From positions 1 through 39,360 of the forward strand of contig NVXP01000154.1 in NCBI GenBank assembly GCA_002733985.1: 39,360 nt of DNA, written 5' to 3'. The position numbers and the translations under genes were made by a program. The stretch's first letter is position 1; the number at the start of each line of letters is the position of its first letter. Shown one piece after another: positions 2,683 to 12,326 of the stretch. A model generated the notes under the pieces. The model was not told where the DNA came from and ran no database searches. It saw only the letters and a program-made list of their open reading frames with translations. This DNA comes from Fluviicola sp. Its GTDB lineage: Bacteria > Bacteroidota > Bacteroidia > Flavobacteriales_D > Crocinitomicaceae.

Positions 2683-3728
2683 CGAGCATCGTACTCCCTG
2701 ACACGCGGCTAACCACACCGACGAAACCGGTGCTTGCGGGCAGTGCGACCAACGGCGGCCACTGGCTTGACGCTGCGCTGATTCACAACCTCAACGCCGC
2801 CATGGTGCACGCCCAGCCTTGCTACCAGCAGGGATGGGACGGCGGCTTTATCTTCGTTACGGCGCCCGCTACGTGGACGTTCAGCCATGAGATTACGGTT
2901 GCGAAGCTCACCGACCAGCACACGAACATCACGTGCCGAATCTACGGCTTTAGCCAAGCGGGCGCAGGTCTCGGCGCTGTCCGCTTCTCCACAGCCTCAG
3001 CGCCAGCAGTCTTCTCGGTGGTCACGCTACCCGCGGGCCCTGCGGTCTGGACTGCAGCGGCGACCTTGCTGAGCGTGGCGGCATCCTTCGGCGTCAACGA
3101 CTACGAAACGATTACCGTAGAGATTCTCGACAGCGTCAACGTCACCACGATGCAGGGCGAGTACGACGAGTTGAGCCCAGGCGGCGCGTATCCCGCGGGT
3201 AATGACGAGCTCGCCTCTGGCGTGGGGCCGGACGGCACGGTGCCCCTCGATACGCTCGAGCTGGCTGCCGACTCGCCGCTACCCTCGGAGATTGCGCGCA
3301 CGCTGGCCGATGGCATTACTGCGGTGTCGCAGCGGCTCCGCACGTATTCGTCAATGGGCACGATACCCATCAGAATGGAACGCCCGTTCCGGGTGGTGAT
3401 TCCGGTTTACGACCTGGGCGCGAGTGTCCACAAGCTGAAGTTCCGGCTGTTGGCCGAAAAGGGTGGGTTGGCCAGGACTCACTTGGTTCAGCATAGCTCA
3501 GCGAGTTCTGCGATTGGCTTCGACCAGTGGAAGAACGCGGTGGCTAGTTCACGCGGGTTCACGCTTGTTACGGTCCCAGGCGGCGCTGGTCAGCACGACA
3601 CGGGAGATATCGAAATCACCCTAGAGGCTGGGGATATCGTGCAGGCACCTGGCGGCTATCTCGGGTTTGCGCACTTGACGCTATGGCCAGGGCCCAACCT
3701 TCTCTCTTTCGCTGTGTGGGGTATCTAA
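2658..3728 (+). CDS. Putative tail structural protein, beta-rich (356 aa)
   Basis: Two in-frame GTG codons are possible, at 2652 and 2658. The purine-rich GAGGGGAGG at 2644-2652 overlaps the first, so the second is the better start. The protein begins VPRTIPAVASIVLPDTRLTT and is full of alternating hydrophobic and small polar residues (ITVEILDSVNVTTMQGEY, DIEITLEAGDIVQAPGGYLG). This fits beta-sandwich modules of tail-tip or fibre proteins. No catalytic motif was found. The next gene starts directly after the stop. I assign it to the tail tip because of its position between other beta-rich structural genes and the large hub-like protein. Confidence 0.6.
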   Translation: MPRTIPAVASIVLPDTRLTTPTKPVLAGSATNGGHWLDAALIHNLNAAMVHAQPCYQQGWDGGFIFVTAPATWTFSHEITVAKLTDQHTNITCRIYGFSQAGAGLGAVRFSTASAPAVFSVVTLPAGPAVWTAAATLLSVAASFGVNDYETITVEILDSVNVTTMQGEYDELSPGGAYPAGNDELASGVGPDGTVPLDTLELAADSPLPSEIARTLADGITAVSQRLRTYSSMGTIPIRMERPFRVVIPVYDLGASVHKLKFRLLAEKGGLARTHLVQHSSASSAIGFDQWKNAVASSRGFTLVTVPGGAGQHDTGDIEITLEAGDIVQAPGGYLGFAHLTLWPGPNLLSFAVWGI

Positions 3729-4355
3729 TTGGCTGGCATCATCCCATCAACGCTCGACAGCGTACCGGACCCGGCATCCTACAATGTGGGGCGGCCACTC
3801 TTTGGGCGCACGGTCTCAAGCCTGTCGAACGGCGTGAATCACCTTGCGGGCTTTCGAGGCCTGCGGTTCATATCGTCTCAGGTGATGGTGGCCCCTAGCT
3901 TCTTCCCTGTCACTGTAATCACCAACGATACGGCCCAAGTGGGCCTCATGGTCAGTGAGCCGACAATGAGGTGGGTGGTTTCCCCCCTTGCTCAGTTTGT
4001 GTGGTGGGGCGCCTGGGTGGCATCCAGCGGTGACCGGGGCACTCCACCAAAATTAGAGGTGTTCCTTGAGACTGTCGCGGGGGTCCTTATTGACACTGTC
4101 GAGTGGACCATAGGCAACGGGCGACTCCCGGCAAACCACTACGGATTTCCGAATGTGGTGACCCCTGAAGAAAGGGGCGCATCGTCTGGCCGAGACACGA
4201 TGCTGCACACTGGGTGGAAAATTGGCATCGGGACATCGCCCAGGCTGCTGGATGTGAGCGCTCATCAGGGCTTAGATGTCCAGATCCGAGTGGTGGCTAA
4301 AGACGTCCGTGTCTACTCCCATTTTGCCCTTGAAGCCTACGAGTCGAGCATATGA
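3729..4355 (+). CDS. Putative tail structural protein (208 aa), TTG start
   Basis: The frame opens with TTG directly after the previous TAA (TAATTG), giving MAGIIPSTLDSVPDPASYNVG. No better ATG exists nearby, so a TTG start with coupling is the simplest reading. The protein is rich in beta-prone segments (FFPVTVITNDTAQVGLMVSE, LDVQIRVVAKDVRVYSHFAL) and lacks membrane segments or catalytic motifs. It overlaps the next gene by ATGA, which shows the two are read together. The family is not recognised. Its place suggests a small tail-tip or fibre-attachment subunit made with the large protein that follows. Confidence 0.55.
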   Translation: MAGIIPSTLDSVPDPASYNVGRPLFGRTVSSLSNGVNHLAGFRGLRFISSQVMVAPSFFPVTVITNDTAQVGLMVSEPTMRWVVSPLAQFVWWGAWVASSGDRGTPPKLEVFLETVAGVLIDTVEWTIGNGRLPANHYGFPNVVTPEERGASSGRDTMLHTGWKIGIGTSPRLLDVSAHQGLDVQIRVVAKDVRVYSHFALEAYESSI

Positions 4356-10465: not shown

Positions 10466-10699
10466 TCAATCCCGCCATGAGAATGCCCTCGTTGTGTCAG
10501 TAGCGCGGGGCGACTGCGCGCCCTCTTGTAGCCGCACATTGTGCAGCTGTATCCATGACCTCGGCACCGAGTCGCGCATCCGCCTGGCCACATCCACGAG
10601 GCTGAAGTTGAAGTGCGGGCGCTGCGGGTGCGCTGGGTTGCACAGCGCTTGCACTTCGTCCTCGGTCAGCCCGTTATGTCGCTTCGCTGCGTAGCTCAT
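10466..10699 (-). CDS. Hypothetical protein downstream of the methyltransferase (77 aa)
   Basis: The ATG at 10699 overlaps the methyltransferase stop by ATGA and has the purine-rich AGAGGGGGG nearby, so the two genes are coupled. The protein (MSYAAKRHNGLTEDEVQALC ending TTRAFSWRD) is basic and helix-prone and contains NPAHPQRPHFNFSLVDVARRM. I do not recognise the family. As the last gene of the leftward block it may act with the modification genes. Between it and the convergent 38-residue gene lie 54 bases with no strong terminator hairpin. Confidence 0.5.
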   Translation of the reverse strand: MSYAAKRHNGLTEDEVQALCNPAHPQRPHFNFSLVDVARRMRDSVPRSWIQLHNVRLQEGAQSPRATDTTRAFSWRD

Positions 10700-11486
10700 C
10701 GCCACCCCCCTCTCTTGGTAAGTAGCCGCCATGCGAGCGCAGCCACTGCTGGAGCCTGCCCGTTACCGAGGGCCTTAAGTCGGTGTGACCTAGCGGCCAG
10801 CCCATCAGAGTCTCGACAAACTCGGGGCTGAGACTCCCAGGCTCTCGAGCCCCATCCGGCCAGCATCCTTTCCGCGCCATCATCTTGAGCCCTGGCCGTA
10901 TCGGACCCACCCGTCCCGAGCCTCCGCCGCGGTTGTAGCCTCCAGTGTCGCCGGCGGTCGGGGTGGGCAGCCACGATCCAGATTCTCTTTCGGTGGTGGG
11001 GGGCGCCAGCGTCGTCCGCTCCAAGCACTCCCCACTCCGCATCGAACCCCATTCCGGCCAGGTCTCCGAGTACGATTCCAAGCCCCCGAGAAGTGAGCAT
11101 TGGCGAGTTTTCCACGAAGACGAATCGCGGTCGTACCTCGCGAATGATGCGGGCCATCTCCACCCAGAGCCCGGACTGCTCTCCGGTGATGCCTGCGCCT
11201 TTGCCAGCGCACGAAATATCTCCGCAGGGGAACCCTCCAGACACGACGTCGACGAGTCCTCTCCACTCGGTACCGTCGAACGTTCTAACATCGTCCCATA
11301 TTGGAAACGGGTGCAAGCATCCGTCGTCCTGTCTCGCAGCCAGTACCGCAATAGGGTACGGCTCTCGCTCGACTGCGCAGACGGTTCTCCACCCGAGGAG
11401 CAAGCCCCCGAGAATCCCGCCCCCCGCGCCTGCGAAGAGAGCGAGTTCTCTAAGGCCGACCGCATCGCGTTGCTGATAATCCACAT
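10674..11486 (-). CDS. Overlapping same-strand ORF inside the methyltransferase gene (270 aa), possible dual-coded protein
   Basis: In the +1 frame relative to the methyltransferase, an ATG at 11486 opens directly on the HNH stop (TGATG), the kind of coupling used elsewhere in this phage. The 270-residue product has an odd start but from about residue 91 shows a distinct pattern: SSSWKTRQCSLLGGLESYSE near 122-141, TWPEWGSMRSGE, SWLPTPTAGD near 171-180, then SLSPEFVETLMGWPLGHTDL near 218-237. From memory this resembles a family of phage proteins with WPTPTA repeats and a LNPxWVEWLMGxPxGWTDL end that are found beside or inside C5-methyltransferase genes. My hand count of codon third positions in the shared region gives 44 of 61 GC here versus 43 of 62 in the methyltransferase frame, so neither looks like noise. 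It could also be a frameshift product or an evolutionary relic. Confidence 0.45.
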   Translation of the reverse strand: MWIISNAMRSALENSLSSQARGAGFSGACSSGGEPSAQSSESRTLLRYWLRDRTTDACTRFQYGTMLERSTVPSGEDSSTSCLEGSPAEIFRALAKAQASPESSPGSGWRWPASFARYDRDSSSWKTRQCSLLGGLESYSETWPEWGSMRSGECLERTTLAPPTTERESGSWLPTPTAGDTGGYNRGGGSGRVGPIRPGLKMMARKGCWPDGAREPGSLSPEFVETLMGWPLGHTDLRPSVTGRLQQWLRSHGGYLPREGGGDELRSEAT

Positions 11487-11517
11487 CAGACACGAGCCAC
11501 TGCCGTGTTGTGTTCAT
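10696..11517 (-). CDS. DNA (cytosine-5) methyltransferase
   Basis: This is a C5-cytosine methyltransferase, which adds a methyl group from SAM to a cytosine in phage DNA, most likely to evade host restriction. From the ATG at 11517 (273 residues) the motifs run in order: motif I LALFAGAGG near residues 25-33, motif IV GGFPCGDIS near 94-102 with catalytic Cys98, motif VI VENSP near 135-139, motif VIII HRKRIWIVA near 175-183 and motif X LKALGNGQAPAVAALAW near 247-263. The target-recognition region between VIII and X is short. The start lies 31 bases inside the HNH gene and has no strong ribosome site, whereas the 3' end overlaps the next gene by ATGA. Another same-strand frame is open through most of this gene (see the following entry). 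Confidence 0.85.
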   Translation of the reverse strand: MNTTRQWLVSDVDYQQRDAVGLRELALFAGAGGGILGGLLLGWRTVCAVEREPYPIAVLAARQDDGCLHPFPIWDDVRTFDGTEWRGLVDVVSGGFPCGDISCAGKGAGITGEQSGLWVEMARIIREVRPRFVFVENSPMLTSRGLGIVLGDLAGMGFDAEWGVLGADDAGAPHHRKRIWIVAAHPDRRRHWRLQPRRRLGTGGSDTARAQDDGAERMLAGWGSRAWESQPRVCRDSDGLAARSHRLKALGNGQAPAVAALAWRLLTKRGGWR

Positions 11518-11917
11518 GCCATTTGTGGTGGCACATCTTGCACAGCCATCGCACGTCAAGAGGCTTGTTGTAGTCGTCATGATGGGCCTGAATAGATGCG
11601 CGACCGTCCCGATACTGAATCCCAACCCCGCAGCACTCTTCACATAGAACACTGCGCACAAGAGCACCCGACGCGACAGCTTTCTCAACTAGGTTGTGCA
11701 CGGGATCGTCGGCCCTGGGGCCGCCTCTATAGAAGTGATTGTCCTTCCCGTATCGCTTCTGCGGGCGCATCACCACCCTGCGCTTCAGGACACCATGCAT
11801 ACTGTTCCTTGATACGCCGAAGTACTCAGCGATGGGCCCACACGACACCCCTCGCCGGTACATAGCAACGGCATCATCAACATTGCCCTGAGTGAGCTTC
11901 TTTAACTTGCCAGCCAC
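11486..11917 (-). CDS. HTH-HNH endonuclease (143 aa)
   Basis: I place the start at the GTG at 11917 because AGGAGG lies six bases before it. An ATG further upstream would run through the ribosome site. The product (VAGKLKKLTQ) has a resolvase-like helix-turn-helix (GPIAEYFGVSRNSMHGVLKR, about 27-46) and a C-terminal zinc-HNH module: C92xxC95, HH112-113 in QAHHDDYNKP, WLCKMCHHKWHEH with C126xxC129 and His130/131/134. This is the pattern of phage HNH homing or restriction-like nucleases. It sits directly upstream of the methyltransferase, so it could be a mobile homing gene or the nuclease partner of a modification pair. The sequence alone does not decide between them. Confidence 0.75.
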   Translation of the reverse strand: MAGKLKKLTQGNVDDAVAMYRRGVSCGPIAEYFGVSRNSMHGVLKRRVVMRPQKRYGKDNHFYRGGPRADDPVHNLVEKAVASGALVRSVLCEECCGVGIQYRDGRASIQAHHDDYNKPLDVRWLCKMCHHKWHEHNTAVARV

Positions 11918-11935
11918 TGACGGCCTCCTATAAGA

Positions 11936-11950
11936 GTACATGTCATGTAC
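11936..11950. promoter_or_regulatory. Palindrome upstream of the HNH gene
   Basis: GTACATG T CATGTAC is a perfect seven-base inverted repeat around one central base, and a KpnI-like GGTACC follows it at 11951-11956. It lies between the HNH gene (11917) and the end of the 113-residue gene (11985) in a 67-base gap, just upstream of the HNH ribosome site. Its place fits an operator or a homodimer binding site, for example autoregulation by the HTH part of the HNH protein. No clear -35/-10 pair was found on the leftward strand. Confidence 0.35.
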
Positions 11951-11984
11951 GGTACCATGCCGTGTAACCATGCGCAACACACCG

Positions 11985-12326
11985 TCACTCCCCCACCCAC
12001 TCACCCAGCAGTGCCCCAGCAAACTCCCATCGGTCACGCCCGTGCCGCCGCTTGAGCGCGAGCCCAAGCCAACTCTCCAGCGCAATCGTCAGCCACTCCA
12101 TACCGAATCCGCCCTCGAACGCCTCGTAGTCCAGCTCAGTGCACAGCTTCCACATCAGCGCATCGGACAGCGGCCCCTCGACTGCAAGGTCCGGCCGGTC
12201 CTGGTGTGTGGACTGCGCAGCAATGTACGGGTCGGGCTCCCGCCTCTTGCCGAAGGTGCTCGCCTGCGGCGGCCCGAGGTAGCCCGCACGTGGGGTGATG
12301 GGCGCGGTAAATGTGTAGATGCTCAT
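11985..12326 (-). CDS. Hypothetical protein of the leftward early operon (113 aa)
   Basis: The ATG at 12326 overlaps the previous leftward gene's stop (ATGA) and has GGAG eight bases upstream, so I use it instead of codons further upstream. The protein is MSIYTFTAPITPRAGYLGPPQ at the start, aromatic and acidic later (LDYEAFEGGFGMEWLTIALE) and ends ALLGEWVGE. No motif is recognised. It is the second gene of the leftward block that includes the HNH and methyltransferase genes. A role in host takeover or DNA modification is only guilt by association. Confidence 0.5.
   Translation of the reverse strand: MSIYTFTAPITPRAGYLGPPQASTFGKRREPDPYIAAQSTHQDRPDLAVEGPLSDALMWKLCTELDYEAFEGGFGMEWLTIALESWLGLALKRRHGRDRWEFAGALLGEWVGE

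Follow-up and report, generated by a model that had tools for sequence, protein, structure and literature searches.

Can a single stretch of phage DNA encode both polypeptides of a two-subunit DNA methyltransferase, one in each of two overlapping reading frames? The question is raised by a locus within a 39,360-nucleotide (nt) stretch of a Fluviicola sp. assembly (contig NVXP01000154.1; hereafter, the window), where a C5-cytosine methyltransferase gene on the minus strand is open in two frames. Frame 0 (positions 10696 to 11517, minus strand) encodes the large domain of the methyltransferase, 273 amino acids (aa) from an ATG at 11517, here termed alpha. The +1 frame (10674 to 11486, minus strand; 11517 − 11486 = 31) encodes a 270-aa protein, beta, which we propose to be a target-recognition subunit. 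Both open reading frames (ORFs) had been described in an earlier note on this DNA, which gave their coordinates correctly and left the strand unstated. The note suggested that the two frames be searched separately; when this was done, alpha matched PF00145 (E = 2e-28, family positions 4 to 166 of 324) and phrog_363 (E = 2.5e-65), and beta matched phrog_1008 (E = 2.3e-20; 329 family positions). Both PHROGs families carry the label DNA methyltransferase. Beta had no Pfam or NCBIfam match up to an E value of 1.

We consider it very likely that this one stretch of phage DNA codes for both polypeptides of a two-subunit C5-cytosine methyltransferase, with beta as the target-recognition side. The coding evidence is strong, and the subunit role of beta is well supported. 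Two-polypeptide C5 methyltransferases are already known, and the phage form described here is a variant in which target recognition is proposed to reside in beta. To our knowledge, long same-strand overlaps with both frames under selection have rarely been established in double-stranded DNA phages. The recurrence of this one in 99 methyltransferase lineages amounts to a natural experiment on two proteins sharing the same bases, and it offers a testable function for phrog_1008.

Selection on both reading frames

Stop codons were counted against a null model in which the methyltransferase protein and its own codons were held while synonymous codons were shuffled within the gene. In the window, where the frame-0 GC content at third codon positions (GC3) is 0.65, the +1 frame has one stop, at its very start, versus 5.64 expected (P = 0.0006; 5,000 shuffles), and its longest open run is 271 codons versus a mean of 120 (P = 0.0006). 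The trimmed cores of 60 loci contained 31 +1 stops versus 245 expected (347 under background codon use) and 756 +2 stops versus 690 expected (670 under background codon use). Since part of these 60 loci had been found via the second frame, the test was repeated on loci found with the methyltransferase query only (43 loci, 40 usable, 14 clusters at 70% identity). The gene cores of these 14 query-independent lineages had 4 +1 stops versus 55.7 expected, with none at all in 10 of the 14, and the same cores had 188 +2 stops versus 171.3 expected, so that the +2 frame is not depleted.

Depletion was also seen in 99 lineages (clustered at 70% identity) with gene ends included (145 +1 stops versus 529 expected). 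It was present in each of five GC3 bins, among them GC3 <0.45 (33 versus 106 expected; 14 lineages), and 78 of the 99 lineages were individually depleted at P < 0.05. Thirty generic C5 methyltransferases, used as controls, showed no depletion (672 +1 stops versus 641 expected); 15 of them, on one strand, were scored in a first run and all 30 in the final one. Genes shorter than 120 to 200 codons and those with ambiguous codons or in-frame stops were excluded from the counts, and one remote relative (L064) gave no single-locus shuffle value because its chosen start includes in-frame stops. Another locus (L046; 8 +1 stops versus 10.8 expected) was rejected as a clean exception, because its methyltransferase pieces lie in two frames and its count therefore mixes frames.

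Residue conservation in the alternative frames was compared with a synonymous null in 539 pairs, which are not independent of each other and exclude those with >62% methyltransferase identity or <100 shared columns. The mean +1 BLOSUM62 score was 1.02 versus a null of 0.28 over motifs I to VIII and 2.43 versus 0.12 in the C-terminal part. Scores with z > 2 were obtained for 83% (motifs I to VIII) and 93% (C-terminal part) of pairs in the +1 frame, versus 49 and 62% in +2. At the site that reads LMGWP in beta, the pattern [LMI]MG[WFYL]P is encoded in the +1 frame of 86 of 98 lineages and is missing in 12. The frame-0 codon under the Met of these 86 lineages is GAT in 46, CAT in 20, AAT in 19, and TAT in 1; therefore, the alpha residue changes (Asp in 46, His in 20, Asn in 19, and Tyr in 1) while the beta Met stays.

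Both frames are under selection. The view of the earlier note that there are two coding frames, the second belonging to a genuine phage family, is borne out by the openness of that frame, by residue conservation beyond the synonymous null, and by the presence of phrog_1008 in very different phages. A comparison of four-fold sites with those of neighboring genes was not used as evidence, as it is confounded by mosaicism (the methyltransferase was lower in 20 of 23 non-independent pairs, and two of three pooled identity bins went the opposite way).

Relatives and distribution

The beta family was confined to the +1 frame of methyltransferase genes among the loci examined. We assembled 226 loci (182 via second-frame searches, 43 via the methyltransferase query, and the window), copies included: one locus (L063) is the window again, and some are copies of one contig. 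All 226 had a second-frame profile match, 225 had a methyltransferase match on the same bases, and the frame relation was +1 in all 225 loci with overlap. The hidden Markov models (HMMs) used for these matches were built without L064 and L015. The exception (L137) has its best second-frame match (3485 to 3758 of that locus) where no methyltransferase match lies, and another piece (3000 to 3234) on such a match. The profile scans for beta covered the best 80 of 88 relatives in genome contigs and the best 80 of at least 462 in viral contigs, and tblastn for beta gave 42 phage and 4 plasmid records, of which part were examined. No stand-alone beta gene was found outside methyltransferase genes among the loci examined from genome contigs, viral contigs, phages, and plasmids. 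Where phage records were found by both alpha and beta queries, the places coincided. The earlier note had associated the second frame with a family coded near methyltransferases; the family is real, and in 225 of 226 loci its coding sequence lies within the methyltransferase gene itself, in +1 every time. The earlier note had also named a pair of outcomes that would count against a second gene: homologues outside methyltransferase genes were indeed not found as far as we searched, and the other outcome, frequent stops in the frame, was not seen.

Named phages with both frames include Microcystis, Acinetobacter, Salmonella, Pseudomonas, Klebsiella, and Stenotrophomonas phages, along with mycobacteriophages SG4 and Zerg, two Bacteroides phages, and a Porphyromonas phage. 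Of these, the loci of Zerg and of one Bacteroides phage are open only from about profile column 70 (177 to 205 codons). A second methyltransferase clade (YYNE type; L064 and L271 to L273) has the same two-frame arrangement: phrog_1008 matched L271 and L272, both of those scanned, and L064 was itself found through phrog_1008. This family matched all four relatives scanned with it (E = 3e-31 to 3.4e-12), from two Enterobacteriaceae-related genomes, one Bacteroides phage, and one Porphyromonas phage. A scan with phrog_1008 found a match in 3 of 395 genomes, the window's own included, one alignment (A1) matched in 4 of 99 genomes from the same family as a Pantoea genome, and L271-like DNA was present in 66 of 5,426 Escherichia coli genomes (with at least 80% coverage in 5). 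Half of the proposed two-part enzyme is missing from annotation, since 11 of 13 annotated phage records compared carry alpha only and two carry beta only (phPA-G, as a hypothetical protein, and SOVA965, as a DNA-cytosine methyltransferase).

The stretch between motifs VIII and X varies greatly in length among relatives (L001, L038, L041, L044, and others) with both frames open, and in these loci the second frame of the stretch carries repeated W-P-T-P-T blocks; it may be where target specificity varies. Two phage genes, in Streptococcus phage Javan6 (L278, 2622 to 3077) and a Latilactobacillus phage (L280, 2556 to 3074), encode single-chain C5 methyltransferases with a classical motif IX in frame 0. 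The +1 frame of each stays open, for 152 and 173 codons, respectively (P = 0.000 in 500 shuffles). These runs score 25.7 and 24.4 bits against the beta profile and may be relics or partial overlaps. In mycobacteriophage Seabastian (L230, 1432 to 2191), a frame change splits the methyltransferase into two annotated genes, and the beta N-terminal half continues into the alpha C-terminal half in a +1 run. Methyltransferase pieces in two frames were also seen in L005, L011, L046, L056, and L057.

A candidate target-recognition subunit

Alpha belongs to the C5 methyltransferases, with motifs I, IV, VI, and VIII in order plus a C-terminal motif X, and the order given in the earlier note is the one we see by eye. 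Motif I (LFAGAGG, residues 27 to 33; 11419 to 11439, minus strand) has invariant columns at L27, F28, G30, and G33, and A29, A31, and G32 are conserved at ≥90%. Motif IV with the catalytic Cys (GGFPCGDIS, residues 94 to 102; 11212 to 11238, minus strand) is invariant from G94 to C98 and at D100 and S102; residue 99 (11221 to 11223), which gives P-C-G after the catalytic Cys, is Gln at ≥90% in the family. Motif X (RLKALGNGQAPAVAALAWRLL, residues 246 to 266; 10720 to 10782, minus strand; invariant G251 and N252) was assigned by eye and from structure, not from PF00145.

The AlphaFold2 (AF2) model of alpha has a mean predicted local distance difference test (pLDDT) score of 78.8, with residues 21 to 190 and 251 to 273 confident and 191 to 250 low (block means of 46 to 57). 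Block values across the motif X region were 57 (241 to 250), 82 (251 to 260), and 95 (261 to 270), with helices at 240 to 253 and 255 to 270. The model aligned with M.HhaI (2uyc_A) at a Z score of 22.2 and a root mean square deviation of 2.4 over 196 residues (10 to 323 of the chain). Judged from the AF2 model and the extent of the PF00145 match, the window alpha lacks a target-recognition domain and a motif IX in the segment that links VIII to X; it is predicted to be the large domain only.

A role for beta, to which the earlier note had assigned no function, is suggested by fused single-chain methyltransferases (410 to 414 aa) on three plasmids, Vibrio cholerae pW7G, Alteromonas pAMCP48-600, and Vibrio campbellii pIFL1_1. 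In these proteins, motifs I to VIII and X are followed by a C-terminal domain with GGLHPEFCEVFMGYPAGWTEL or a similar sequence near its end. A profile of 127 beta proteins matched this domain in hhalign (probability, 95.2; E = 2.5e-8 for the single comparison; 108 columns) over profile columns 121 to 253, i.e., window beta residues 122 to 238. By hmmsearch, the V. campbellii protein scored 28.2 bits (columns 123 to 248) and the other two scored 15.3 and 10.7 bits (last 25 columns only); none of 4,500 shuffled sequences reached the fused-protein scores (best, 9.5 bits). The fused genes had 21 +1 stops versus 20.7 expected (V. cholerae), 15 versus 17.5 (Alteromonas), and 27 versus 27.1 (V. campbellii). 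Their +1 frames are thus not kept open, and the overlap is therefore absent where the domain is fused in frame. By profile comparison, then, part of beta is a homologue of the in-frame C-terminal domain of these single-chain enzymes, and since the fused genes lack the overlap, we infer that beta is the target-recognition subunit. A search of viral contigs for fused proteins (query P0003) found no match, and a sequence search of the PDB with the beta profile gave two weak matches (E = 0.025 and 1.8).

Three blocks of beta stand out. The match to the fused domain begins at SSSWKTRQCSLLGGLESYSE (residues 122 to 141; 11064 to 11123, minus strand), in which T127 is conserved at ≥90%. The SWLPTPTAGD block (residues 171 to 180; 10947 to 10976, minus strand; P176 at ≥90%) shares its bases with the end of alpha motif VIII (VAAHPDRRRH). 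The third, SLSPEFVETLMGWPLGHTDL (residues 218 to 237; 10776 to 10835, minus strand), has an invariant M228, with P221, E225, W230, P231, and T235 at ≥90%, and is equivalent to GGLHPEFCEVFMGYPAGWTEL of a fused methyltransferase. The peptides quoted in the earlier note were all found, and SLSPEFVETLMGWPLGHTDL and ESQPRVCRDSDGLAARSHRL occupy the same bases, as it had said. The SLSPEFVETLMGWPLGHTDL block resembles C5 motif IX, a likeness that is suggestive only. Of 199 beta proteins submitted to a motif IX HMM, 185 were scored, and in 135 of these the best placement of the HMM was at the LMGWP site.

Start codons and translation

The earlier note had allowed that the second protein might be reached by frameshift. 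No such route is needed: in 58 of the 86 lineages whose profile match reaches the N terminus, beta has its own ATG 4 nt after the alpha start ([AGT]TG-A-ATG-A). A Shine-Dalgarno-like match of at least 4 bases lies upstream in 47 of these 58 dual-start lineages, and none was found in 5. With a stricter pattern, a Shine-Dalgarno core was found in 45 of 63 and not in 18; it ends 3 to 5 nt before the alpha start in 32 of the 45 and therefore 7 to 9 nt before the beta ATG. The codon of alpha Asn2 is AAT in 62 of 63 cases; among the remaining Asn codons of these genes, AAT accounts for 265 of 722. Adjacent starts (AUGUG and GUGUG sites) are described as able to direct translation of both frames in E. 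coli (PMC9841429).

The window differs in its starts. As the earlier note had it, the 270-codon +1 frame begins as TGATG on the stop of an upstream HNH-endonuclease-like ORF, whose TGA (11488 to 11486) overlaps the beta ATG at 11486. Alpha could start at the ATG at 11517 or at an in-frame GTG at 11493, both of which lie inside the 3' end of the HNH-like ORF.

We propose that frame 0 yields alpha, an S-adenosylmethionine-binding catalytic large domain (motifs I to VIII and X) that in the window lacks a target-recognition domain, and that the +1 frame yields beta, the C-terminal half of which would be the target-recognition small domain with a motif-IX-like block (L-x-P-x5-L-M-G-W-P). Both would be translated off one mRNA. 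Initiation in most relatives would occur at two starts four bases apart, usually behind one Shine-Dalgarno-like sequence, and in the window beta would initiate on the HNH stop, probably by re-initiation. Once made, the two polypeptides would pair up as a heterodimer on DNA, where they would methylate a specific cytosine; this would probably shield phage DNA from restriction. Translation of beta, the heterodimer, target recognition, methylation, and the benefit to the phage are all inferred.

Alternative explanations

Several observations weigh against this reading. The 15 generic controls with a GC3 value are AT-richer than the family (0.17 to 0.51). One locus (L144) fails to keep the frame open (9 +1 stops versus 11.4 expected), and in another (L273) the stop count is undepleted (4 versus 4.8) and only the long run stands out. 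Conservation in +2 is also above its null (0.65 versus 0.24 over motifs I to VIII; 0.98 versus −0.12 in the C-terminal part), and for pairs that include the remote L064 the C-terminal part is conserved no more than the null predicts. Synonymous changes between 20 independent close pairs are only slightly milder in +1 than random ones (−0.84 versus −1.04), so the conservation signal rests on divergent comparisons. Modeled on its own by AF2, beta yields a poor structure (pLDDT, 58; predicted template modeling score, 0.24), and a viral fold search with it was therefore uninformative. Alignment of L-x-P-x5-L-M-G-W-P to motif IX by hhalign is not significant alone (E = 0.62), and motif IX HMM scores of beta proteins are near those of shuffled ones (mean, −2.2 versus −2.8), the top score (6.2) being that of a shuffled protein. 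Some alphas are much longer between VIII and X (L001 and L044, at 377 and 406 aa in all), so a target-recognition domain within alpha is possible there. Finally, the sequence of M.EcoHK31I, the two-polypeptide enzyme compared below, was absent from the collections searched, and the likeness to it is one of described features.

On a rival reading, beta would be a true overlapping gene that has another role, such as an anti-restriction protein, a methyltransferase regulator, or a DNA-binding partner, and merely travels along with the methyltransferase. The same coding evidence applies to such a gene; the first ~120 residues of beta have no counterpart in the fused proteins, two of which match in the last 25 columns only. 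We nevertheless think another role unlikely, given that residues 122 to 238 are homologous to a domain fused in single-chain C5 methyltransferases, that those enzymes have no other space for a target-recognition domain and do not keep the +1 frame open, and that VIII and X of the window alpha are separated by no more than a short stretch modeled with low confidence. It would be a very improbable outcome for the +1 frame to be a by-product, open, and conserved in appearance, merely through similar GC-rich codons at conserved methyltransferase residues, with phrog_1008 consisting of miscalled genes. In its favor, no homologue of beta was seen on its own among the loci examined, annotations call one frame each (11 alpha only and 2 beta only of 13 phage records), and the +1 reading of an Ala-Asp-Gly-Val...Arg-Val-Asp-Arg stretch can indeed give L-M-G...G-W-T. 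Chance openness from GC-rich codons is nonetheless rejected by the synonymous-shuffle tests: with protein and codon use kept, 56 stops are predicted and 4 are seen, the depletion persists in the 14 lineages with GC3 <0.45 (33 versus 106), generic and fused methyltransferase genes are undepleted, and the Asn2 codon follows the second frame (AAT in 62 of 63). Programmed ribosomal frameshifting between the frames, yielding one long protein, strikes us as the least credible reading. A few loci do have methyltransferase pieces in different frames (L005, L011, L046, L056, L057, and Seabastian), from real indels or sequencing errors, and a hybrid reading could occur in them. Frameshifting would require the second frame to be open only beyond the shift site, yet almost the entire gene is open in both frames, whose starts lie close together, as do their stops, and the second frame has its own start codon.

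Returning to the two-subunit methyltransferase that we favor, a bolder extension of it seems to us doubtful, if conceivable: that the overlap is of ancient origin and marks out a major class of phage C5-methyltransferases, the catalytic and target-recognition subunits being tied to one piece of DNA where recombination could never part them. The arrangement would then have persisted across methyltransferases only ~25 to 30% identical and in phages of several bacterial phyla. The motif-IX-like block would still sit collinearly between VIII and X, though in the other frame, as if compensating frameshifts had split an ancestral single-frame enzyme that was subsequently overprinted in each direction. 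Genes with the domain fused C-terminally in frame (circular permutants) would have escaped from the overlap.

Genomic context

The window is phage or prophage DNA, since 6 of 10 scanned proteins match PHROGs (terminase, major head protein, head protease, DnaB-like helicase, RecT, and endolysin). Alpha is the sole PF00145 match in the whole 5.1-Mb assembly, and no DNA match to the alpha/beta stretch was found in 19 other genomes (12 of the same genus). The HNH-like ORF upstream (11486 to 12085, minus strand; phrog_2340 endonuclease, E = 1.1e-19) overlaps the 5' end of the methyltransferase gene. HNH genes adjoining methyltransferases may be mobile.

Comparison with known systems

Searches of an open library of papers, judged by titles and abstract openings, gave no description of this phage overlap. 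Alpha and beta correspond to phrog_363 and phrog_1008 in PHROGs, and the table text seen there has no statement that both are frames of one gene. An out-of-frame HNH endonuclease, the ShiLan domain, is described as hidden in a mycobacteriophage methylase gene (PMC11855218). The likeness is that of a second, out-of-frame protein within a phage DNA methylase gene; the difference is that ShiLan is a sporadic homing HNH insertion, whereas here the second frame covers the catalytic core and is widely conserved. That beta might itself be a hidden HNH protein was rejected, as it has no HNH match in PHROGs, Pfam, or NCBIfam and covers the conserved core. The Rz/Rz1 overlap of phage lambda is shorter than the alpha/beta overlap. 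In that spanin pair, one protein is reported to be encoded wholly inside its partner's gene (PMC9409062); these lysis proteins are unrelated to alpha and beta.

Split C5 methyltransferases are closer comparisons. M.AquI is likewise divided into two polypeptides (PMC3404938), but its split lies elsewhere, whereas here motif X remains with alpha. A naturally split methyltransferase has also been used for targeted DNA methylation (PMC3439449). We sought relatives of M.EcoHK31I on plasmids, and two E. coli genes, L274 and L276, look like ordinary single-chain methyltransferases (28 +1 stops versus 31.5 expected and 27 versus 25.3, respectively). L274 has one +1 run of 83 codons (P = 0.006), and a third gene, L275, which runs off the fetched stretch, resembles it.

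In M.EcoHK31I itself, the gene of the large polypeptide also contains, in an alternative frame, the coding sequence of the small one. Its target is given as YGGCCR. PMC3404938, citing Lee, Kam and Shaw 1995, describes a two-polypeptide C5 methyltransferase with motifs I to VIII and X in the large subunit and motif IX in the small one, and it places the predicted target-recognition domain in the large subunit. The window alpha likewise has I to VIII and X and lacks IX, and a second polypeptide is likewise encoded in another frame, here as a +1 overlap in 225 of 226 loci. In contrast, the overlap here takes in nearly all of the gene, a distance of 4 nt between the starts is common, and the sequences are those of phages and prophages; alpha lacks the target-recognition domain, for which beta is the candidate. 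Because the window alpha is without that domain, the alpha/beta pair would work like M.EcoHK31I rather than being a member of its kind.

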